Part shown: piece after piece, positions 3,169-21,187 of the stretch | Layout of the letters: each line of letters opens with the position of its first letter | How positions within the stretch are numbered: position 1 is the stretch's first letter | DNA from: Rubrobacter tropicus | GTDB lineage: Bacteria > Actinomycetota > Rubrobacteria > Rubrobacterales > Rubrobacteraceae | Length of the DNA stretch: 64,000 bases | Direction of reading: 5' to 3' | Assembly (NCBI RefSeq): GCF_011492945.1 | Contig: NZ_CP045119.1 | Span: forward strand, 3,162,001 to 3,226,000 | Notes under the pieces: generated by a model | Seen by the model: the letters and a program-made list of their open reading frames with translations, nothing else | What the model was told of the DNA's origin: nothing | Database searches by the model: none | Translations under genes and position numbers: made by a program

Positions 3169-4236
3169 CTAGCCCTCCGTCATCACGCGCCGGATCTTGG
3201 TCGCCTGTTCCCGCGACTTTCGGGCCCGGGCTTGGAAGCGTTCGGAGGCGCGGGGTTGGCCACCGCTTTGGGCGCGGGCGGCGAGTTTTTCGGCCATCTC
3301 CGCGGCCTCTTCGAGGGCGTTGAGGGCGGCGTAGAGGGCCTCCTCCAGCGCCCCGTTCTTGCCTTCGAGCACGGCCTCGGCGGTGTAGGCATGGCCGACC
3401 CGGCAGCGGAAGCGAGTAAGGGGGCCGTCCTCGATGCCGTAGAGCGGGCCCGAGCACTCCGGGCAGGTGAAGCCGGAGAGTTTCCCGGGGTGGCGCCCGC
3501 CCTCGATGACCGAGGGCTCCAGGCCGGAGATCTTCGCCTCCAGCACCAGGTCTTCGGGCGCGGTATAGGCCCCGACCTTTTCGGCCGGCCCGCGGACGAG
3601 GCGGGCCAGCAGGGGCGCCATCTCACCGACCGGCGCGCAGTAGTCGACGTCGACGTGGCGCAGGGCGCTCTCGGGCATCGGCCGGAAGAGGGCGTCGTCC
3701 GGGTCCTGCACGACCGCGACGCCGCCCATGCGCTTTATCGCCACGAGCCCCGCCGTCCCGTCGTCGTCGGCGCCCGTGAGCACGACGCCGACCGCCCGCG
3801 GGCCGTACGCGAGCGCCGCCGTCCGAAAGAGCGGGTCGACGGCGGGCCGGTGGCCGTTCTCTTTCGGCCCGCGCGCGAGGCGCACGCGCCCGTCCTCGAC
3901 GAGCAGGTGGAGCCCCGGCGGCGCGACGTAGACGCGGCCCCCCTCCAACCGGTCGCCGTCCTCGGGGTGGAAGGCCTCGAGCGGCCCCGCCCGGCCCAGG
4001 ATGCGCGGCAGCGCGCTCGGCGCCTCTTGCGGGAAGTGGAGCACGACGAGCACCGCCGCGGGCAGGTCGGCGGGCAGGCCCCCGACCAGCGTCGAGAGCG
4101 CCTCGACCCCGCCGGACGATGCGCCTATTGTTATCACGTCGTGTCCCGCCAGAACCTCCCTCCGCGACGCGGAGTATAGTAAGTCTACGCCCGCGCGGGG
4201 GACCGTGGGCCTGTCGAGGAGTGTAGAATACACCAA
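3169..4236 (-). CDS. cheB: CheB-type protein-glutamate methylesterase without receiver domain
   Basis: 355 residues. CheB methylesterases remove methyl groups from glutamates of chemoreceptors or related signalling proteins. The nucleophile Ser is in ITIGASSGG (about residue 40), the catalytic His in VVLHFP and the Asp in GADDDG. There is no N-terminal receiver domain. Instead the C-terminus adds a CPEC...CRVGH motif that looks like a zinc knuckle, followed by an Ala/Glu helix. It is divergent from the CheB-CheR-PAS gene and shares its 95-bp promoter region. A GTG at 4137 (residue 34) is an alternative start; a TATACT -10-like box lies inside the longer version. Confidence 0.88.
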   Translation of the reverse strand: MVYSTLLDRPTVPRAGVDLLYSASRREVLAGHDVITIGASSGGVEALSTLVGGLPADLPAAVLVVLHFPQEAPSALPRILGRAGPLEAFHPEDGDRLEGGRVYVAPPGLHLLVEDGRVRLARGPKENGHRPAVDPLFRTAALAYGPRAVGVVLTGADDDGTAGLVAIKRMGGVAVVQDPDDALFRPMPESALRHVDVDYCAPVGEMAPLLARLVRGPAEKVGAYTAPEDLVLEAKISGLEPSVIEGGRHPGKLSGFTCPECSGPLYGIEDGPLTRFRCRVGHAYTAEAVLEGKNGALEEALYAALNALEEAAEMAEKLAARAQSGGQPRASERFQARARKSREQATKIRRVMTEG

Positions 4237-12843: not shown

Positions 12844-13605
12844 CTAGAGGGCCGGCATCGGTGTGACGCGACTGAGGGAGAGCCCGGACTCGTAGGCCAG
12901 TATGGTCCCGGAGTGCTTGGACTGCGCCCGCCTGAGCGCCACCGACGACCACCCTTCGACGGCCTCTTCGAGCGCGGCCGTCTTGACGACGAGCTGCTTG
13001 GCGTCGACGAGGCCGGCGAGCCTCTCCTGCTGCTCCAGCGCCGTCTCCAGCCCGACCTGCTTGACCCAGTCGAACGAGGCCCACACCGTCCGTCCCTCCC
13101 CCACGCCCTCCTCGATGAGCCGGCCGAGCTGGTCCTCTCGTCCTCCCAGGGGGTTCTCTTCCGGCCTCATGAGGAGCCGTCGCTCACGCTGCAGGCGCCC
13201 GGCTTCCAGACCGTTCTCCTCGAACCGGGCGATCAACTCCTCCGCCGGGCTGTCCTCCCCGCCATGAAACTTCACCAGCAGCCCGTCCCGGGCCTCGCCG
13301 ACCCGGAAGAACGCGGCGTCCAGACGGTGCAGAAGTTCGAGGTTCTGGGCGATGGCGAGCACGTTGTCGGGAACCCGCAAAAAGGAGCCCAACTGCCCGA
13401 CGAGCGTGGTCGGACGCTCCTTCTCCCTGAGAAAGTCATCCAGAGCATCCCGCCGCACGCGCCAGTGCTTGCCGACCTTCAGGCACGGCAGCCTCCCCTC
13501 CCGACACCAGCGCCAGATCGTGCTCTCCTTTACCCCGAGAACCCCCGCCACCTCTTCCGCGCCCAGTAACTCGATTCCCCGCCCGCTCTCCTGAGATACC
13601 GCCAA
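12844..13605 (-). CDS. Excisionase-type HTH regulator with unknown C-terminal domain
   Basis: 253 residues. Residues 13-60 form a MerR/excisionase-like winged helix: LLGAEEVAGVLGVKESTIWR followed by a wing GRLPCLKVGKHWRVRRDAL. The remaining 190 residues are alpha/beta, soluble, and could be a ligand-sensing domain; some features recall DcmR-type MEDS domains, but I cannot confirm this. It is divergent from the membrane-stress cluster starting at 13806 and separated by an AT-rich promoter region, so control of that cluster is plausible. No cysteine clusters or membrane segments. Confidence 0.72.
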   Translation of the reverse strand: MAVSQESGRGIELLGAEEVAGVLGVKESTIWRWCREGRLPCLKVGKHWRVRRDALDDFLREKERPTTLVGQLGSFLRVPDNVLAIAQNLELLHRLDAAFFRVGEARDGLLVKFHGGEDSPAEELIARFEENGLEAGRLQRERRLLMRPEENPLGGREDQLGRLIEEGVGEGRTVWASFDWVKQVGLETALEQQERLAGLVDAKQLVVKTAALEEAVEGWSSVALRRAQSKHSGTILAYESGLSLSRVTPMPAL

Positions 13606-13805
13606 TTCTCAAATCCTTCCCCGACACCCGACCACGCGCCCATTGTGCCCTACGACACCCTCCGCGGCGTGATCGTTACACCTTTAGATGCATTTTTACC
13701 GTATTTTGGTCTTGTTTAGTTGACTATACCTTAGTTTGACGTATGTTGATGTACGTAAAGGCAACGATTCGCCGCGGAGTGGCCGGGGCGACAGAGAGGA
13801 GAAGC
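13606..13805. promoter_or_regulatory. AT-rich divergent promoter region
   Basis: This 200-bp gap is the most AT-rich stretch nearby. Between about 13710 and 13760 it contains three related direct repeats, TTGACTATA, TTGACGTATG and TTGATGTACG, that could be -35 or regulator sites for the rightward cluster. A TATACC hexamer may be a -10. Exact start points cannot be fixed by eye. The segment just before 13806 carries the ribosome site GAGAGGAGAAGC. Confidence 0.4.
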
Positions 13806-14087
13806 ATGACCGAGCAGCATGCGGCACCCAGGGTTCACACGCGTGAGCGGGACGGGGATCTGAGGGGTGCGGACACCCGGAAGGGCACGGAGACCAAGCC
13901 GTCCTTCAAGACCACCGAGTTGATCGTGTACGTGCTGGCGGTTGCCGGCGTGCTGATCGCCTCCGCGATCGTCGACAACAGCTTCGGCGCGGACCCGGCG
14001 TGGCGGTACGTCACGTACCTGACGGTCGGCTACATGATCAGCCGCGGCCTGGCGAAGGCCGGCTCCAGGTACCCCCAGGACGACTAA
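13806..14087 (+). CDS. Small two-helix membrane protein
   Basis: 93 residues. A polar N-terminal half (residues 1-40) precedes two predicted transmembrane helices, LIVYVLAVAGVLIASAIV and a second around WRYVTYLTVGYMISRGLA. The C-terminus is short and charged. The ATG at 13806 follows GAGAGGAG and is preferred over an upstream in-frame start. It opens the co-oriented membrane-stress group and is followed by a strong terminator, so it may be separately transcribed. Not assigned to a named family; function unknown. Confidence 0.75.
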   Translation: MTEQHAAPRVHTRERDGDLRGADTRKGTETKPSFKTTELIVYVLAVAGVLIASAIVDNSFGADPAWRYVTYLTVGYMISRGLAKAGSRYPQDD

Positions 14088-14111
14088 AGTTCGGGCGGCG
14101 ATCTTGGAATC

Positions 14112-14150
14112 GGGCGGGGCCGGGGTATCTGATCCCGGCCCCGCCCTTTC
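14112..14150 (+). terminator. Rho-independent terminator
   Basis: Perfect 13-bp stem GGGCGGGGCCGGG / CCCGGCCCCGCCC with a nine-base loop, followed by TTTCT. It lies 25 bases after the stop of the small membrane protein gene. Confidence 0.85.
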
Positions 14151-14199
14151 TCGGCCGCCGGGGGCGAACGACGGGCTGCGGAAAGGGAGGCGAGTTTAG

Positions 14200-14301
14200 A
14201 TGATACGGGTTCCTGGTGGGTGCCTGTTCTGGGTGCTGATCAGCATCGTCCTGAGCGTGGGCCTGACGGTCCTCGCGAACCTCGTCTTGGTCCTGTTTTG
14301 A
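14200..14301 (+). CDS. 33-residue membrane peptide (MIR...GC type)
   Basis: A very small gene with a clear GGGAGG ribosome site nine bases before its ATG. The peptide starts MIRVPGGCLFWVLISIVLS and continues as a single hydrophobic helix to the stop. A second peptide at 16311-16430 has the same opening MIR, a Gly-Cys pair and one hydrophobic helix, so the pair is probably homologous. It lies between a terminator and the next gene of the membrane-stress group. Probably a single-pass inner-membrane peptide; function unknown. Confidence 0.6.
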   Translation: MIRVPGGCLFWVLISIVLSVGLTVLANLVLVLF

Positions 14302-14364
14302 ACCGGGGGGCGTTAACGAGGTGTTTGTTGGTGGCAGTGGGTAGCGACTGAGAGGAGAAAGACC

Positions 14365-14898
14365 GTGGAGAGTAGCGAGACCGCGCAGAAGGCGAAGCAG
14401 CAGGGGCAGCAGTTGACCCGGCAGGCCCGGCAGCAGGCCGGGGAGCTTGCGACCCGGGGCGGCGAGCAGGTCAAGTCCCAGCTCGCGAGCCAGAAGCACG
14501 AGGCTTCGCAGAGGCTGACGCCCATACAGGTGGCGCTCAGGGAGACCGCCCAGCAGCTGCGCAAGCAGGGCCAGGCGCCGGTCGCCCAGTACGCGGACAA
14601 GGCCTCGGATCAGGTCGAGCGGGTCTCCGGCTACCTCCGGGAGACCGAGGTCGACGAGATGGTCGACGAGGCGCGCGGTTTCGCGCGCAGCAGGCCGGCC
14701 CTCTTTCTCGGCGGCGCCCTGGCGCTCGGTTTTCTCGGCGCCCGCTTCCTGAAGAGCTCCTCCCAGGAGGCCTCCAACGGCCAGCCGGTCGCGGCGCTCC
14801 CCCCCGCCGAGGCCGCCCCCCCGACGGCGAGGCGCACCCCGACGGCCGGCGGGTCCGTGGACGGGGCGGACCGTCCCGTGTCCCCCCGGGGAATCTAG
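14365..14898 (+). CDS. Gln-rich amphipathic protein with one membrane anchor
   Basis: 177 residues. Residues 1-105 are a charged, Gln/Ala-rich amphipathic helix (repeats such as TRQARQQAGELATRGGEQV) resembling LEA, apolipoprotein or YtxH-like stress proteins. One membrane helix follows (ALFLGGALALGFLGARFL, about 113-130). The tail is Pro/Ala rich. The GTG start is supported by GAGAGGAGAAAG upstream. The next gene begins nine bases after the stop with its own AGGAGG site, so they are co-transcribed. Likely coats or shapes the membrane; this is inference. Confidence 0.75.
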   Translation: MESSETAQKAKQQGQQLTRQARQQAGELATRGGEQVKSQLASQKHEASQRLTPIQVALRETAQQLRKQGQAPVAQYADKASDQVERVSGYLRETEVDEMVDEARGFARSRPALFLGGALALGFLGARFLKSSSQEASNGQPVAALPPAEAAPPTARRTPTAGGSVDGADRPVSPRGI

Positions 14899-14907
14899 GA
14901 GGCTTCG

Positions 14908-15306
14908 GTGCAGGGTAGGAACGGTAGGGACGACCGCACGCTCGGGGAGCTCTTCTCCGAGCTGGCGCGGGAGACCTCCACGCTCGTCCGCCAGGAGGTG
15001 AACCTCGCCAAGACCGAGATGGGTCAGAAGGCCTCGCGGGTCGGCAAGGACGTGGGCTTTCTGGCGGCCGGGGGCGTCTTGGCCTACGCGGGGCTGCTGG
15101 CGATCCTCGCCGGGTTGATCGTGCTGCTCGGACAGGTCATCCCCATGTGGCTCTCGGCCCTCCTGGTCGGGCTCGTGGTGGCGGCCGTCGGCTACTTCCT
15201 GATCAAGAAGGGTCTGGACGCCCTCAAGAGGGAAGACCTGGCACCGCGGCAGACGATAGAGACGCTAAAGGAGGACCAGCAATGGATCAAAGACCAGGCG
15301 AAGTAG
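14908..15306 (+). CDS. Actinobacterial holin-X family (holin superfamily III) protein
   Basis: 132 residues. A soluble N-terminal helix with TLGELFSELARETSTLVRQE is followed by two transmembrane helices (about 52-74 and 80-100) and a charged tail ending near KEDQQWIKDQAK. This matches the putative holin-X family, widespread on actinobacterial chromosomes away from phages, where it is not a lysis protein as far as known. GTG start six bases after AGGAGG. The next gene starts 25 bases inside its 3' end, indicating tight coupling. Confidence 0.82.
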   Translation: MQGRNGRDDRTLGELFSELARETSTLVRQEVNLAKTEMGQKASRVGKDVGFLAAGGVLAYAGLLAILAGLIVLLGQVIPMWLSALLVGLVVAAVGYFLIKKGLDALKREDLAPRQTIETLKEDQQWIKDQAK

Positions 15307-16238
15307 TGCGGCGGGACCCTCTCGGGGGCGGCACCCCGGGGTTCGACCCGGCCACCGACGCCTTCGATCCCGACGCGGTGAGAGACCCAGCGCTCGGCGG
15401 GGCGGACGTAGATCGGGTCGAAGTGGATCAAGTCGAGGTGGACCGGGTCGAGGTGACCAAGGTCGAGATCGAGCGCACCAGGGCCGACATGAGCGAGACG
15501 GTGGACGCCATCCAGGAGAGGCTCTCCCCGCAGAACCTCAAGGAGCAGGCGAAGGACAAGGTTAAGGAGGCAACCGTGGGTAGAGCCAGGGAAGCAAGGT
15601 CCGGCGTGGTCGAGACCGTCAGGGCCAACCCGCTGCCGGCGGCGCTGACGGGCATCGGCCTCGGCTGGCTACTGATGAGCGCGCGCCGGCAGAGCCCGCA
15701 GCCGCGCTACCGGGACGACGTCTACCGTTACCGTACCCCCACCAACGAGTACGCCCGCGAGGTCGACGAGTACCCGCTTCATGAGGGCGAAGCGGCGGAC
15801 GGCTCCTCGGCGGGCGAGTCCCTCGGGCGCGCCAGGGACAAGGTCGGGGAGACCGCCACCCAGGCCCAGGACAAGGCGCAGGACGTCGCCGGTCGTGCCC
15901 AGGACAAGGCGGGGGATCTCGGCAGCCGGGCGCGAGACGGGGCGAGCCGGCTGGGCAGCCAGGCCAGGCAGCAGGCCGGGCGGGCAGGCGGAGGGTTCCA
16001 GCGGATGCTCAACGAGAACCCCCTGACCGTCGGCGCGCTTGCCGTCGGCGCCGGCGCGGCGATAGGGCTCGCCATTCCCGAGACCTCCAAAGAGCACGAG
16101 GTCATGGGCGAGGCCCGCGACACCGTCGTGGAAAAAGCCCAGGAGAAGGCCCAGGAGGCCCAGCAGAGGGTCCAGCGGGTCGCAGAGGAGGCCCAGGGCG
16201 CGGCCCAACAAGAGGCCGAGAACCAGGGTCTGAAGTAG
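15282..16238 (+). CDS. DUF3618-type membrane protein with amphipathic repeats
   Basis: 318 residues. Near residue 43 there is a five-residue tandem repeat (DRVEV-DQVEV-DRVEV-TKVEI). Next comes the DUF3618 core, ERTRADMSETVDAIQERLSP, and a short membrane helix (about 112-128). The middle is a run of AQDKAQDVAGRAQDKAGDLG-like 11-residue amphipathic repeats as in LEA proteins, and a second hydrophobic glycine-rich segment lies near 250. DUF3618 proteins usually sit beside holin-X genes, as here. The ATG at 15282 follows AAAGGAGGACC within the previous gene. A strong terminator follows, so the operon ends here. Confidence 0.82.
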   Translation: MDQRPGEVVRRDPLGGGTPGFDPATDAFDPDAVRDPALGGADVDRVEVDQVEVDRVEVTKVEIERTRADMSETVDAIQERLSPQNLKEQAKDKVKEATVGRAREARSGVVETVRANPLPAALTGIGLGWLLMSARRQSPQPRYRDDVYRYRTPTNEYAREVDEYPLHEGEAADGSSAGESLGRARDKVGETATQAQDKAQDVAGRAQDKAGDLGSRARDGASRLGSQARQQAGRAGGGFQRMLNENPLTVGALAVGAGAAIGLAIPETSKEHEVMGEARDTVVEKAQEKAQEAQQRVQRVAEEAQGAAQQEAENQGLK

Positions 16239-16256
16239 AACGAACCCCAGGATAGC

Positions 16257-16296
16257 GAGCGGGCGCGGCCGGTTTCGGCCGCGCCCGCTCTTCTTT
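16257..16296 (+). terminator. Rho-independent terminator
   Basis: Perfect 14-bp stem GAGCGGGCGCGGCC / GGCCGCGCCCGCTC with a six-base loop and TTCTTT tail, 18 bases after the stop of the DUF3618 gene. Confidence 0.92.
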
Positions 16297-16310
16297 AGAG
16301 GGGAGGGCGG

Positions 16311-16430
16311 ATGATACGTTGGGGAAGGGGCAACCGCGGCGGCTGTTGCGTGGTGATACCCATAGGTTGCCTCACGTCGGTGGGGCTGGTGCTGCTGTTC
16401 GCGGGTCTTGCCGTCGCAAGGATGCTGTAG
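16311..16430 (+). CDS. 39-residue membrane peptide (MIR...GC type)
   Basis: Small gene directly after a terminator, with GGGGAGGG seven bases before the ATG. The peptide starts with MIRWGRGNRGGCC, continues into VVIPIGCLTSVGLVLLFAGL as one membrane helix, and ends VARML. The basic Gly-rich head gives an inside-positive orientation. It is related in layout to the peptide at 14200-14301. Three cysteines next to the membrane are notable. The gap to the next gene (16431-16514) holds that gene's leader only. Confidence 0.6.
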   Translation: MIRWGRGNRGGCCVVIPIGCLTSVGLVLLFAGLAVARML

Positions 16431-16514
16431 AGGCGTCGGACCGGGGCGGGAAGTTCCCGCCTTCTCCGAAACGGGTACGAGGTTCCATGAAGTGAGCCAA
16501 CGAGAGGAGCGCGA

Positions 16515-17069
16515 ATGACCGAAAGAGGCATAGACAGGATGGAGCAGGCGCCGGAAGAGGCCAGGCAGCAGTGGCTCGGCATGCTGCAAACGCTCGCCGA
16601 GCAGATCCAACGCCAGCAGCAGACCTCGCAGCAGATGACCCAGGAGATGATGGAGACCTACATGCAACTCCTGCAAACCCCGGGCTCCTACCTCTCCGGC
16701 CAGGCCGAGCAGCAGCAACAGACCCTCCAGCAGACGGCCCAGCAGTGGATGGAGCAGGCCCAGCAGCAACGGCAGACCTTCCAGCAGCAGGCCCAGCAAC
16801 AGCAGCAGGCCTTCCAGCAGATGACCCAGGAGGTGATGAGCACCTACGCGCAGCTCTTCAACATCCCCCTCTCCTACGCCCAGAAGGGCCTGCGGGACAC
16901 GGGGTTCCCGATCCAAAACTACGACGACCTGAACGCGGACGATATCATCAGGCGTACCTCCGGCCTCTCCGCCGAAGAGCTTCGGGTGGTCCGCGACTAC
17001 GAGGAGCGCAACAAGAACCGCGAGACGGTGCTGGAGCAGCTCGACCGCAGGATAAGGTCGGGTTCCTAA
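16515..17069 (+). CDS. Gln/Met-rich phasin-like coiled-coil protein
   Basis: 184 residues. Residues 25-120 are a Gln-rich helix containing two related units, QQMTQEMMETYMQLLQTPGS and QQMTQEVMSTYAQLFNIPLS, separated by long glutamine runs. The C-terminal 50 residues (YDDLNADDIIRRTSGLSAEE then VRDYEERNKNRETVLEQLDR) form a compact domain that recurs at the end of the protein at 20099-20524. The layout of an amphipathic helix plus small domain resembles phasin or granule-associated proteins. The start follows GAGAGGAGCGCG. A strong palindrome follows the gene. Function unknown. Confidence 0.75.
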   Translation: MTERGIDRMEQAPEEARQQWLGMLQTLAEQIQRQQQTSQQMTQEMMETYMQLLQTPGSYLSGQAEQQQQTLQQTAQQWMEQAQQQRQTFQQQAQQQQQAFQQMTQEVMSTYAQLFNIPLSYAQKGLRDTGFPIQNYDDLNADDIIRRTSGLSAEELRVVRDYEERNKNRETVLEQLDRRIRSGS

Positions 17070-17114
17070 CCGGCCGGTCCCGCAGGGGACCCGAAGAAGG
17101 TGACCACGCGCGAA

Positions 17115-17154
17115 GGGAGCCGGCGCGGGGATCGCGATCCCCGCGCCGGCTCCC
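17115..17154 (+). terminator. Long perfect palindrome, possible terminator
   Basis: A 40-bp perfect palindrome with arms reading GGGAGCCGGCGCGGGG and its complement around ATCGCGAT. It lies 46 bases after the Gln-rich gene. The T-tract is poor (GCGGTCC follows), so it is either a weak terminator or a binding or structural site. Confidence 0.6.
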
Positions 17155-17256
17155 GCGGTCCGGGCCGTCTTACGGATGGCGTAAAAGAGCGACCTTCGGG
17201 TACGTGCCCGTTGGCCGGGCCCTCGAAGGGCACGACTACCGATTGAGAGGCGACCC

Positions 17257-17934
17257 ATGGACGAGACGAACCTGAACCAGTTCAAAGAGGTGACCCCCAG
17301 CGGCACCTTCACCCTGCAGAACTCGTCGCTGCTCAAGGTCCGGCTGGACGGGAACTCCGTGCAGGCGAAGCTGGGCTCGATGGTCGCCTACCAGGGCGGG
17401 GTGCGCTTCGACCACAAGGGCGGGGGCCTCGGTCGGTTCTTCAAGAAGGCCCTCACAGGTGAAGGCGTCGACCTGATGGTCGCCGGGGGGACCGGGGACC
17501 TCTTTCTGGCGCACAACGCCCGCAAGATCATGATCCTCGAGCTCGAAGGCGAGACGATGACGGTCAACGGGGACAATATCCTCGCGTTCGAGGAGGGCGT
17601 GGACTGGGACACCGTCCCGCTGGCGGGGGCCGGGAGGCTCGCCGGCGGGGCGTTCAACGTGGTGCTGCAAGGCACCGGCAAGGTGGCCGTCACGGCCCAG
17701 GGAGATCCGGTCCTGCTCGACACGAGCACCCCCACCTCCGCGGACCCCGACTCGGCCATAGCGTGGAGCGGCGGGGTGCACACCCGCGTCAAGAGCGACG
17801 TCTCCTTCAACACCTTCCTCGGGCGCGACTCGGGAGAGACGTTCCAGATCGCCTTCGAGGGCCCTGGCTGGGTCCTGATACAGCCCTCCGAAGGCCCCAC
17901 GGTGCCCCCGCACACCCACGCCAGGCAGGGCTGA
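17257..17934 (+). CDS. AIM24 family protein
   Basis: 225 residues, a beta-rich protein of the AIM24/TIGR00266 family. The sequence alternates short strands with glycine turns (for example SMVAYQGGVRF, DLMVAGGTGDLFLAHNA and NVVLQGTGKVAVTAQGDP), as expected for its double-stranded beta-helix-like fold. The mitochondrial namesake is involved in membrane organisation; bacterial members are uncharacterised. The ATG follows GAGAGGCGACCC. It is 36 bases upstream of the lipid kinase gene and probably co-transcribed. The family assignment is secure, the role is not. Confidence 0.85.
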   Translation: MDETNLNQFKEVTPSGTFTLQNSSLLKVRLDGNSVQAKLGSMVAYQGGVRFDHKGGGLGRFFKKALTGEGVDLMVAGGTGDLFLAHNARKIMILELEGETMTVNGDNILAFEEGVDWDTVPLAGAGRLAGGAFNVVLQGTGKVAVTAQGDPVLLDTSTPTSADPDSAIAWSGGVHTRVKSDVSFNTFLGRDSGETFQIAFEGPGWVLIQPSEGPTVPPHTHARQG

Positions 17935-17970
17935 CCCGTCGCTTCGCCGGAGGGCCGCGCCGGAGCAGAG

Positions 17971-18894
17971 ATGAAAAAAACACGCGACACCACCACGGCG
18001 GCCGTCATCATCGGAAACCCCAACTCGGGTAGCGCGGGCGACGAGGGCTATCTCGAGGGTTTCGCCGACACCCTGCGCGCCGGCGGCCTCACGGTCGAGG
18101 TGCTGAACACGGAGCGCCCGGACCACGCCACCGAGCTCGCCGCCGCGGCCGGCGACCGACTCGTGATCGCCGCCGCGGCCGGCGACCGACTCGTGATCGC
18201 CGCCGGGGGCGACGGGACGGTGAACGAGGTCCTGAACGGCCTCTCGGCGGGCGCCACTTTGGGCATCCTGCCGCTCGGCACGGCGAACGTGCTCGCGCGG
18301 GAGCTCGGGCTGCCGCTGGAGCCGCAGGGGGCCTGCGAGAGGATCCTGACCGGCTCGGCCTCCCGGATGGACGTCGGGGTGGCGACGGACGACGACGGGG
18401 CCGAGCGACGCTTCGCCTGCATGGCCGGCATCGGCTTCGACGCCGACGTCGTGCGCGAGGTGGGCCCGCGCCTGAAACGCTACCTCAGGTCGCTCGCCTT
18501 CCCGCTCGTCGCGCTGAAGGTGTTCTTCCGGGGCGACAGGCCCCAACTGCACATCAAGGACGGCGACACCACCCACGTGGTCCAGTACGCCGTCGTCGCC
18601 AACGGCCAGTACTACGGGGGAGACTTCGAAACGGCGGAGGACGCCTCGCTGAGGAGCGGGGAACTCCAGGTCGTCCTCGTCGAGAAGGTGGGGCACCTGA
18701 TGCGCCCCGACGTCCTGGCCCACGTACTGGCCAAGAAGCCCCTGGACCGCACCATGAAGTCGTTCGCCTCGGGCCGGGTCGTGGCCGAGTCCCCCTCCGG
18801 TGGACGGGTCCCGGTGCAGATAGACGGCGAAGTCTGGGGCCGCCTGCCCATGTCCTTCCGGATCGAACCGGCCGCCGTGGCCGTGATCCGTTAG
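17971..18894 (+). CDS. Diacylglycerol/lipid kinase (DagK/YegS family)
   Basis: 307 residues. Lipid kinases of this fold phosphorylate diacylglycerol or related lipids with ATP. Visible motifs are IIGNPNSGSAG at the N-terminus, the catalytic GGDGTVNEVLNGL (about residue 77) and PLGTANVLARELGLP. A conserved GIGFDADVV follows near residue 155. Directly before GGDGT there is an exact 30-bp tandem duplication (18139-18198) that repeats ten residues, AAAAGDRLVI, and would lengthen the strand-loop leading to the active site. The reading frame is kept. Follows AIM24 in the membrane-stress group. Confidence 0.88.
   Translation: MKKTRDTTTAAVIIGNPNSGSAGDEGYLEGFADTLRAGGLTVEVLNTERPDHATELAAAAGDRLVIAAAAGDRLVIAAGGDGTVNEVLNGLSAGATLGILPLGTANVLARELGLPLEPQGACERILTGSASRMDVGVATDDDGAERRFACMAGIGFDADVVREVGPRLKRYLRSLAFPLVALKVFFRGDRPQLHIKDGDTTHVVQYAVVANGQYYGGDFETAEDASLRSGELQVVLVEKVGHLMRPDVLAHVLAKKPLDRTMKSFASGRVVAESPSGGRVPVQIDGEVWGRLPMSFRIEPAAVAVIR
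18139..18198 (+). repeat. Exact 30-bp tandem duplication inside the lipid kinase gene
   Basis: Two identical 30-bp units, 18139-18168 and 18169-18198, each beginning GCCGCCGCGG and ending CTCGTGATC. A third, partial copy of the first six bases follows. The frame is preserved. Confidence 0.95.
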
Positions 18895-18937
18895 AGCAGT
18901 CGCCCCGGCGAAGAGCGCCCAGCTTGGACGACGCTGG

Positions 18938-19019
18938 ACACATCAAGACACATAAGTTACTAATATACGGTACACTACGAGCACGCTAGACACGCTTGCA
19001 CGCACGGTTGCACGCACGG
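18938..19019 (+). promoter_or_regulatory. Probable promoter and 12-bp tandem repeat upstream of the Crp/Fnr gene
   Basis: Locally AT-rich. TACACT at 18971-18976 or TATACG at 18964-18969 may be the -10. Two ACACAT(C/A)A-type direct repeats lie upstream (about 18938-18954), and TTGCACGCACGG occurs twice in tandem (18996-19007 and 19008-19019). The latter sits in the leader and could be an operator for autoregulation. Confidence 0.4.
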
Positions 19020-19088
19020 GTCGATTCCCTTCCCCGGCACGGGGAGGCGCTCGGGTTGCGTTTCTGCAGAAGGAGAGAGACGGCGAAG

Positions 19089-19790
19089 ATGGCGATGTCG
19101 CAGGAAGAGCAGGTACGTCTGCTCTCGATGGTGGACATCCTCGAGCCGCTTTCGCCCGAAGAGTTGGAAGAGTTGGCCCGACGAGCACCGGACACATACC
19201 TCGACGAGGGAGAGATCCTCTACACCCCCCAGGAGACGGGCGAGAAGCTGTTCATACTCAAGAAGGGCAGGGTGCAAGTCTACGAGATGAACCCCGAAGG
19301 GTCGGAGATCACGCTCTCCGTGGTGGAGAGCGGGGCCGTGTTCGGGGAGATGACCCTGACCGGCCAGAGCTTCCGGGGGGTGTACGTCAGGGCGCTCGCG
19401 CCCTCGTACGTGTGTTCGCTCGGGTTGCCGGACTTCGAGGGCCTGGTGATGAGGAACCCGCAGGTAGGCCTGAGGCTCGTGAGGGTGCTCGCCGGGAGGC
19501 TGCGCCAGTCCGAGCTTCGCATGGCGGACCTAGTCCACAAAGAAGTCCCCGCCCGCCTCGCCACCCTGATCCTGACGCTCGTGGAGAGCGAGGGGCTGGT
19601 AAGCGGCGAGAGCTACAGGATAGCCACCCGCTACACCCACGAGCAGCTCGGCACCATGATCGGGGCGAAGCGCGTGGCGGTGAGCCGGGCCTTCTCCCAC
19701 CTCAAGGAAGCCAGGGCCGTCGAGTTCAAGAACCGCTACATCCACATCACCGACATGGAAAAGCTCCGGGAGGTCTCCACGGCCGGCTAG
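19089..19790 (+). CDS. Crp/Fnr-family transcription regulator
   Basis: 233 residues. The N-terminal cyclic-nucleotide-like beta-roll spans about 20-135 (GEKLFILKKGRVQVYEMN, GAVFGEMTL) and a dimer helix is followed by a winged helix (YTHEQLGTMIGAKRVAVSRA, about 185-205). The usual phosphate-binding Arg-Ser/Thr pair after FGE is not obvious, and there is no Fnr-type cysteine cluster, so the ligand is unknown. A start at 19089 is preferred over an upstream in-frame TTG because AAGGAGAG lies just before it. A CRP-like palindrome lies 100 bases downstream of the stop. Probably regulates neighbouring stress genes. Confidence 0.9.
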   Translation: MAMSQEEQVRLLSMVDILEPLSPEELEELARRAPDTYLDEGEILYTPQETGEKLFILKKGRVQVYEMNPEGSEITLSVVESGAVFGEMTLTGQSFRGVYVRALAPSYVCSLGLPDFEGLVMRNPQVGLRLVRVLAGRLRQSELRMADLVHKEVPARLATLILTLVESEGLVSGESYRIATRYTHEQLGTMIGAKRVAVSRAFSHLKEARAVEFKNRYIHITDMEKLREVSTAG

Positions 19791-19889
19791 AGGGCCGCTA
19801 GCTCCACCCTCTGGCCTCGCGCAAGACGGGACGCCTGCCCGCCGGCGGGGGCTCACCCGGGCGAAAACTACCGAACTCGCCAACGTAAG

Positions 19890-19940
19890 TGTGTTTTGTA
19901 TCACAGGATACGGCGATCTCGTCCCCCCTATATATTGTGG
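19890..19940 (+). promoter_or_regulatory. CRP/FNR-type operator with downstream -10 box
   Basis: TGTGTTTTGTATCACA at 19890-19905 matches the TGTGA-N6-TCACA consensus in nine of ten positions. A TATATT hexamer follows at 19931-19936. If that is the -10, the operator is centred about 45 bases before the start point, near the class II activator position. It would be the promoter of the gene at 20099 and lies right after a Crp/Fnr gene. Confidence 0.55.
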
Positions 19941-19943
19941 TGG

Positions 19944-20098
19944 CGGGTGAAAAGTGACGCCCATCAAGAGATGGGCTGGGAAGGGGAAACTCAACCTTCG
20001 GGTCGGCGCTTTGCCGTGCCGGGCCCCTGCCACGGCGGGGCCCGACCCGGGGGTGGTTCCCGGCGGAAAGCATGCAAACTCGGGAGTCTGGAGGTCCG
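19944..20098 (+). other. Long GC-rich leader with several hairpins
   Basis: About 155 bases between the presumed start point and the GTG at 20099 contain no convincing reading frame. It holds CGGGCCCC-(9)-GGGGCCCG at 20020-20044 and other potential stems. I compared it mentally with cobalamin, c-di-AMP and c-di-GMP riboswitches and saw no match. It could be a structured 5' UTR. Confidence 0.3.
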
Positions 20099-20524
20099 GT
20101 GATCCGCAACGAGGCAAGACGCGACCCCTACAGAACGCTCGTGGAGGCGGCCATCAAGGTCCAGGAACGGAACGTGAGGGTCACCGTGGACATGCTCGAC
20201 ATGCTAACCGGTCAGGCCGGGGCGACCCGCGCCTTCCTGGAGCACTTGAGGGAGCAACAGGAGGCCTTCTGGGCGCTGGCCGAGGGATCGTTCAAGACCT
20301 GCCTGGGCCTCCCCCACGACGGGGCCCCGGAAGGAGAAGCCCCCTCCACCGGCCACCGTGATTCGGGGTTGCCCGTGGAGGACTTCGACCGTCTCGGCGT
20401 CGAGGAGCTGGGCCGCAAGCTGGAGGGGCTCTGCGCGCGGGACGTCGAGAGGCTCAAAGACCACGAGAGGCGCACGGGGAACCGCCGCGCCGTGATGGAG
20501 CGCCTGGACCGCGCGCTCGTCTAG
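20099..20524 (+). CDS. Helical protein sharing a C-terminal domain with the Gln-rich protein
   Basis: 141 residues. The N-terminal helical half (about 5-65, ARRDPYRTLVEAAIKVQERN) is followed by a variable linker. The C-terminal 48 residues (FDRLGVEELGRKLEGLCARD and HERRTGNRRAVMERLDRAL) align with the end of the product at 16515-17069: both read (Y/F)D-x-L near the start, a GL(S/C)A turn and a final NR-x-x-V-x-x-x-LDR. The GTG start is supported by GGAGG four bases upstream. A CRP-like promoter precedes it. Phasin-like role is a guess from layout. Confidence 0.65.
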   Translation: MIRNEARRDPYRTLVEAAIKVQERNVRVTVDMLDMLTGQAGATRAFLEHLREQQEAFWALAEGSFKTCLGLPHDGAPEGEAPSTGHRDSGLPVEDFDRLGVEELGRKLEGLCARDVERLKDHERRTGNRRAVMERLDRALV

Positions 20525-20558
20525 GGACCGCGGGACGCTTAAGAAAGGAGAGGCAGGG

Positions 20559-20773
20559 ATGCGTTCGGATGAGGCCGTGGTGGGCAAGAAGGTGCGGGTA
20601 CTTCCTCAACACCGGCGGGAACAGTTTCGGGGGCATCGGGCACGATCCGTCAAAGGTACGGCGCCCCGGATTACCTGGCCCTGGACGTGGAGTTCGGGGA
20701 CGGGAGATCCGTGCTCTTCTGGCACTACGAACTCGAGGAGATGAATGACGCGTCGACCCTCGACCGCCGCTAG
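20559..20773 (+). pseudogene. Small conserved protein gene broken by a one-base frameshift
   Basis: The N-terminal part reads MRSDEAVVGKKVRVLPQHRR from 20559; then, at the G run 20629-20633, the frame must slip by one missing base to continue as GTIRQRYGAPDYLALDVEFG and end at TAG 20771-20773. The restored 71-residue product has the beta-rich pattern of a small actinobacterial family with a VG-x-x-VRV opening and a LFW...ELEE ending. The ATG follows AAAGGAGAGG. Homopolymer position suggests either a sequence error or a very recent mutation. Confidence 0.65.
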
Positions 20774-20848
20774 CGGCAGGGTCTCGGCCAGGGGAGGGGG
20801 TCCCGAACGCGGGCCCGCGTCTCCGACAAGCGAGGAGAGGTTCGTATC

Positions 20849-21187
20849 GTGTACTGGTTGATAGTGGCGCGGGAAGGCTTCCGCATGCGCGTGTGCACCG
20901 TCCGGGGCGAGGACGCTATGCCGGTCTTCAGCCGGGAGGGAGATGCCGCCTCGTTTCTGCGGGTCGCGGGCCTGGAGGACGGTTGGTGGGCCAGGGAGAC
21001 CAGCCTCGGCGAGCTCGTCTCCCTGCTTCTGGGTCCCTACGCGGGCGTCTCGAGGATCTTGCTCGACCCCCCAGCCGGGGACGCCGGACCGCCGGAAGGC
21101 GCCGCGGGCGTGGAGCGTAGGGCTTTCGTGGATCACCTGATGCGGGACTCCCGGGCCGGTGCGGCGGAGGTGGGCGCGGGCCGCTAA
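20849..21187 (+). CDS. Hypothetical protein, second member of the small paralogue family
   Basis: 112 residues. Opens YWLIVAREGFRMRV, continues with MPVFSREGDAASFLRVAGLE and a later SRILLDPPAGD; this order of elements matches the products at 1315-1692 and 35051-35413. The C-terminus is a charged helix. The GTG start has GAGGAGAGG about ten bases upstream. No catalytic or metal motif is evident. It closes the membrane-stress region before lutABC. Confidence 0.7.
   Translation: MYWLIVAREGFRMRVCTVRGEDAMPVFSREGDAASFLRVAGLEDGWWARETSLGELVSLLLGPYAGVSRILLDPPAGDAGPPEGAAGVERRAFVDHLMRDSRAGAAEVGAGR

Follow-up and report, generated by a model that had tools for sequence, protein, structure and literature searches.

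Operons in which the genes for a tail-anchored-type helical protein and a YqjE/Holin-X protein are followed by a third small gene are known from yqjCDEK in Escherichia coli and PA3040-3042 in Pseudomonas aeruginosa, and stress or stationary-phase control has been published for those operons. PA3040-3042 is controlled by AlgU and is induced by envelope stress and in stationary phase (PMC11302039), and YqjD of E. coli, a tail-anchored protein that binds ribosomes, is under sigma-S control (PMC10746276). Sigma-H of Actinoplanes, which is homologous to a sigma factor for osmotic stress, raises the expression of two Holin-X/DUF3618 operons (PMC11205660). A locus whose core resembles these systems lies at positions 13806-21187 of a 64,000-nucleotide stretch of Rubrobacter tropicus DNA (contig NZ_CP045119.1, from a 4.58-Mb genome in two contigs), referred to below as the window.

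The Rubrobacter genes q177, Holin-X and DUF3618, here called the triplet, correspond in arrangement to the E. coli and P. aeruginosa operons. In contrast to these, q177 lies below the DUF883 Pfam cut-off, the third gene encodes a DUF3618 protein, and the locus adds the small membrane protein p93, two membrane peptides (pep33 and pep39), a divergent HTH_17/MEDS-like regulator (HTH17) and often a lipid kinase (lipK). The Actinoplanes operons ACSP50_3380-3383 and ACSP50_4921-4923 share with the window the adjacency of PF07332 and PF12277 genes on one strand, whereas 3380-3383 includes DUF4235 and BrkB genes and the Rubrobacter unit has q177, p93, pep33 and pep39. The parallels to PA3040-3042, YqjD and Actinoplanes therefore suggest that the core of the locus belongs to a known type of stress-membrane operon, as a variant specific to this lineage.

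The original prediction read the region as fourteen genes pointing one way and sharing a role in the envelope and in granules. The common direction is correct, whereas the number is not: 12 intact genes, all on one strand, are accompanied by one frame-broken open reading frame. The region does not form one 14-gene unit but consists of a conserved core, part-time members and bystanders. A composite reading is somewhat favored, in which the core is a stress-responsive inner-membrane module, and the phasin-like genes phasA and phasB together with the small gene p112 make up an adjacent granule-coat set.

A conserved core within a composite region

To compare gene order, stretches around relatives of Holin-X and phasA were fetched, and the window proteins were mapped onto them; the relatives named in the search were mostly Rubrobacter or Rubrobacteraceae. 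The block of divergent HTH17 followed by p93, pep33, q177, Holin-X, DUF3618 and pep39 recurs in four loci (L009, L010, L011 and L014), and it is found with single missing members or contig ends in four others (L012, L013, L015 and L016). lipK follows in L009, L010, L014, L015 and L023, and two genomes (G003 and G007) carry two diverged copies each with the order retained. The module is also present in a cultured strain, R. marinus SCSIO 52915 (locus L061). The core order (13806-16430, often with lipK) is far beyond chance. Conservation of the order across 14365-17934, the check set beforehand, was largely borne out for HTH17 through pep39, with lipK present in several genomes. It did not extend to AIM24, which is at the module in only three loci (the window, L014 and L012, where it is cut by a contig end), or to phasA, at the module in two of six genomes. 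No conserved order was seen across 18900-21187 in the compared loci.

Two layouts define the outer members. In L014 (genome G004) the block from HTH17 to pep39 is followed by AIM24, lipK and directly lutABC, and in L023 (G005) p93, pep33, pep39, phasA, lipK and lut are kept while the triplet and AIM24 are missing; Crp is absent between lipK and lutA in both. Because of these layouts, Crp, phasB and p112 are regarded as genes added in the window genome, with AIM24 and phasA as part-time members. Such independent variation of phasA, AIM24, Crp, phasB and p112, together with the hairpins that split the region after p93 and DUF3618, would be expected if unrelated units without a joint function pointed one way by chance. 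However, the core order persists across genera despite changing flanks, and the duplicate copies share it, which makes a merely gene-rich region quite unlikely.

The triplet reaches further than the rest of the core. Its order and strand were kept in contigs of Chloroflexota, Acidobacteriota, Armatimonadota and Desulfobacterota. The labels found in the named-genome search were Chloroflexi, Herpetosiphonaceae, Thermomicrobiales, Pyrinomonadaceae and other Acidobacteria, Bryobacterales, Armatimonadetes, Abditibacterium and two desulfobacterial groups; these contigs are mostly metagenome-assembled genomes (MAGs), and some taxon labels may be wrong. p93, pep33, pep39, HTH17 and lipK were seen solely in Rubrobacter-type contigs or actinobacterial MAGs. 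Genes of the DUF2382 and PRC-barrel types, as read from the sequence, adjoin the triplet in L021 and L022.

Several observations weigh against the core as a single stress-responsive module. The L023 layout shows the core to be separable, and the module is patchy: of the 35 family relatives that were searched, 11 carry a close Holin-X relative (at least 58% identity). The duplicate copies in G003 and G007 come from MAGs and could reflect mixed bins. The region upstream of the triplet lacks a conserved stress box. Finally, q177 has no Pfam match, and DUF883 matches are weak and confined to 2 of its 16 relatives (best 0.0047).

The last point bears equally on a more specific explanation modeled on YqjD, in which q177 and the DUF3618 protein would hold idle ribosomes at the inner membrane of stationary-phase cells, Holin-X would aid growth arrest, and membrane shaping would be secondary. 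The gene arrangement is that of yqjD-yqjE, where YqjD is a tail-anchored ribosome binder and overexpression of YqjE arrests growth (PMC10746276, PMC11302039). However, besides the weak DUF883 similarity, the P. aeruginosa homologs did not inhibit growth when overexpressed (PMC11302039), and ribosome tethering as the main function is considered unlikely. The composite reading, with a membrane module as its core, is retained below.

Features of the region and its flank, with positions in the window (Table 1), include the family assignments. The Pfam profiles agree with the identities first proposed for Holin-X, DUF3618, AIM24, the lipid kinase and the Crp/Fnr regulator, and the divergent HTH regulator is present as described.

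Table 1. Coordinates, strands and supporting evidence for genes and predicted regulatory sites
Feature	Position	Strand	Evidence
HTH17, HTH_17 DNA-binding domain and C-terminal domain (residues 62-250)	12844-13605	-	HTH_17 60 bits
Candidate operator dyad TACACC-TTTA-GATGCA, between HTH17 and p93	13677-13692	.	at most 1 mismatch in L009, L011, L014, L015
Predicted sigma-A type promoter TTGACT-N16-TATGTT for p93	13720-13747	+	sole promoter found by scan; alignment of 7 intergenic regions
p93, small membrane protein	13806-14087	+	same-place orthologs in L009-L012, L014-L016, L023
GC hairpin after p93, likely terminator or attenuator	14115-14150	+	orthologs have GC hairpins there
pep33, 33-residue membrane peptide, motif GGCLFWVL	14200-14301	+	kept in 8 loci, pN/pS 0.32
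q177, amphipathic-helix protein, C-terminal membrane segment (YqjD-like arrangement)	14365-14898	+	triplet gene 1
Holin-X (Phage_holin_3_6, YqjE type)	14908-15306	+	PF07332 114.4 bits, cut-off 28.4
DUF3618 protein, hydrophobic segments, long amphipathic C-terminal part	15282-16238	+	PF12277 48.2 bits, cut-off 24.9
Predicted strong intrinsic terminator after DUF3618	16257-16290	+	15-pair stem, TTCTTT tail, -36.8 kcal/mol
pep39, 39-residue membrane peptide, motif RGCCVVxPIGCL	16311-16430	+	kept in 8 loci, pN/pS 0.41
Sigma-B type promoter-like site GTTC-N16-GGGTAC, upstream of phasA	16453-16478	+	six phasA upstream regions
phasA, Q-rich helical phasin-like protein, C-terminal granule-type domain	16515-17069	+	six orthologs, 2 at module
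AIM24-family protein, part-time member	17257-17934	+	PF01987 118.8 bits, cut-off 25.7
lipK, YegS/DgkB-type lipid kinase	17971-18894	+	PF00781 (DAGK_cat) 99.3 bits, cut-off 23.6; PF19279 (YegS_C) 56 bits
Crp/Fnr regulator, outside conserved block	19089-19790	+	PF00027 (cNMP_binding), PF13545 (HTH_Crp_2)
phasB, phasin-like, same C-terminal domain as phasA	20072-20524	+	gene caller favors start 20099
p112, small protein, unnamed family	20849-21187	+	recurs beside C-domain phasins and HTH17 paralogs

The two small membrane peptides are genuine conserved genes: length, motif and position are constant across eight loci each, with ratios of nonsynonymous to synonymous polymorphism (pN/pS) of 0.32 for pep33 and 0.41 for pep39. 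A third membrane peptide, Gly-rich and related to pep33 but missing in the window, follows DUF3618 in L010 (11412-11600), L011 (7579-7773), L012, L016 and others. p93 has no Pfam match, and the start of the DUF3618 gene is as set by the gene caller. The description of amphipathic proteins as LEA-like did not hold up as a family assignment. It reflects a resemblance of amphipathic helices alone; the Apolipoprotein and LEA_4 matches are subthreshold, neither q177 nor the DUF3618 protein matches an LEA profile, and LEA_4 appears in 1 of 16 q177 relatives (0.0063).

In lipK a GGDGT motif can be read, and the TIGR00147 score of 117.8 falls just under the cut-off of 118.65. A strain-specific 30-base tandem duplication at 18145-18205 (10 residues, AAAAGDRLVI repeated) directly precedes this motif and is absent from the relatives in L010 and L014 and from the own-genome paralog in L037; it may represent an active-site disturbance or an assembly error. 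Farther downstream, near 20559-20748, a coherent protein is split across three frames, as a pseudogene or through sequencing error.

Predicted transcription units and the divergent regulator

The hairpins after p93 and DUF3618 suggest that the region is transcribed as several transcripts rather than as one operon. Strong hairpins also follow DUF3618 in L009, L010, L011, L015, L016 and L059, and the hairpins in orthologous loci occupy the same places with differing sequences. Their T tails are often poor, and attenuation or mere structure is possible.

Upstream, the p93 promoter is conserved in the alignment, and a candidate operator dyad lies upstream of it. As a genome-wide operator of HTH17 the dyad was rejected, with 2 exact genome matches against 4 for a backward control, which is weak and not an enrichment. 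A sigma-B box as a common feature upstream of q177, p93 or AIM24 was likewise discarded, as its position is not conserved.

The upstream region of phasA differs in this respect. Gram-positive sigma-B promoters consist of GTTT, a spacer of about 14-16 and GGGTA. In the six phasA upstream regions (31-56% identity) GGGTA is the sole invariant run, present in all six, and a GTT- or GATT-like element precedes it by about 16 bases in most. These two elements fit promoters of the sigma-B type. Among upstream regions in own-genome stretches, GGGTAY occurs in 8 of 128, and a SigBFG protein is encoded in the genome (261 bits, cut-off 234).

The regulator itself combines an HTH_17 domain with a C-terminal domain whose fold was predicted. 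In the AF2 model of HTH17 (8 sequences; pLDDT 82), residues 62-250 resemble FlaH (4yds; Z 16.9, root-mean-square deviation (rmsd) 3.0, 171 aligned) and KaiC (Z 16.4, rmsd 2.9, 171 aligned) in structure comparisons that included Foldseek. The HTH17 sequence shows no Walker A motif. MEDS (PF14417) matches were obtained for 6 of 11 family members (best 3.2e-4), and the window protein is not among the matches listed. The C-terminal domain is thus predicted to have a KaiC/RecA fold that lacks a Walker A motif and is probably MEDS-related. Like DcmR/MEDS regulators, HTH17 would join an HTH domain to a MEDS-related sensory domain; unlike them, it has an HTH_17 domain, no listed MEDS match and stress-gene neighbors rather than a connection to C1 metabolism.

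According to a published hypothesis, MEDS regulates SigB negatively in actinobacteria (PMC11507031). HTH17 paralogs adjoin PRC-barrel/DUF2382 genes (L036, L041, L043 and L044) and Hsp20 genes (L045 and L048), which suggests a regulator family for stress loci. One own-genome paralog (L036, 4116-5569) lies divergently to stress genes of the PRC-barrel and DUF2382 types.

Phasin-like proteins and a proposed adjacent granule set

The supposed phasin-like pair shares, as claimed, a C-terminal domain of about 48 residues; membership of a phasin family was not found for either protein. No phasin model scores above cut-off for phasA or phasB, and 1 of 10 members matches Phasin_2, at 0.012. The label rests on paralogy to genes beside polyhydroxyalkanoate (PHA) synthesis genes, and Rubrobacter produces PHA granules (PMC8146576). 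Five further own-genome proteins carry the domain, seven in all. One copy adjoins a PhaC-type gene (L034), and two phasin-like paralogs lacking the domain adjoin thiolase and PadR regulator genes (L035). A model of phasA built without an alignment consists of helices only, at low confidence (65).

The domain is weakly common to these proteins and to the lipid droplet proteins of the Rv1109c type (NF033649), which, with PHA phasins, are their closest described counterparts in the helical phasin-like N-terminus and in paralogs near PhaC-type and thiolase genes. The scores nonetheless lie far under the NCBIfam cut-off of LipDrop_Rv1109c (phasA 15.2 bits, against 110). In the phasin alignment (A1), 8 of 10 members match this model weakly (best 8e-5), consistent with the 8 of 10 that carry the domain; the output does not name which members match. 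Unlike in the Rv1109c-type family, the domain also occurs on hydrophilic DUF5872-like proteins (L032, 6620-7183; L016, 11653-12246), the L016 gene being convergent with the module.

p112-like genes adjoin both C-domain phasins (L033 and L034) and HTH17 paralogs (L036, L041, L042 and L043). More family members lie near the module or in its neighborhood (L055, 2554-2955; L015, 6700-7179; L021, 4420-4809; window, 1315-2484). Assignment of p112 to SseB was rejected, with one weak match of eight, in one relative.

These observations bear on the joint role first proposed, in which the lipid kinase, AIM24 and phasins of one operon would build or coat membrane-derived granules. phasA adjoins lipK in L023 and is one gene apart from it in the window, and AIM24 adjoins lipK in the window and L014. 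However, phasA is placed elsewhere in four of its six genomes (L024-L027), phasB, tried as a syntenic member, has no syntenic ortholog in the compared loci, AIM24 is restricted as described, Crp and p112 stand outside the block, and hairpins separate the genes. A single envelope-plus-granule operon is therefore very unlikely, and the joint role of the whole region is not upheld.

Proposed role of the module

For the core, conserved order and known families are combined with several predicted transcription units and the conserved p93 promoter, and a role in envelope stress is likely by analogy with the operons discussed above. Induction by stress, part of the original prediction, draws on the published control of the same gene families and on the HTH17 paralogs beside PRC-barrel/DUF2382 and Hsp20 genes; for this locus it is inferred.

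In a simple model, the degenerate KaiC-like (MEDS-related) domain would let HTH17 sense a signal, and HTH17 would act at the divergent promoter region. The tail-anchored amphipathic helices of q177 and DUF3618 would lie along the membrane and surround Holin-X and the two peptides; they would stabilize or remodel the membrane under osmotic stress, desiccation or stationary-phase stress. The lipid kinase may convert diacylglycerol to phosphatidic acid during membrane remodeling. phasA, with its own sigma-B type promoter, could form with phasB and p112 a PHA or lipid granule coat set marked by the common C-terminal domain; this set adjoins the module and need not act jointly with the core.

More generally, it is possible, if rather doubtful, that pseudo-KaiC (MEDS-like) one-component regulators switch several stress loci in Rubrobacteraceae, including the two-peptide Holin-X/DUF3618 module, and that sigma-B in parallel switches granule proteins whose C-terminal domain is common to PHA phasins and mycobacterial lipid-droplet proteins.

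Overall, the core is real and conserved within boundaries that differ from those first drawn; its stress role is plausible, and a joint granule role is unsupported. New here are the predicted KaiC/RecA-like regulator domain, the GGGTA box in all six phasA upstream regions, and the C-terminal domain of seven proteins with its weak Rv1109c match. That domain, which is weakly shared with lipid-droplet proteins of mycobacteria, might be a tag that targets proteins to granules in general. Some Rubrobacter species rank among the bacteria most tolerant of radiation and desiccation. The core, a compact conserved module with two peptides of fewer than 45 residues and a sensor-regulator of predicted pseudo-KaiC fold, bears on the poorly understood envelope tolerance of these organisms.

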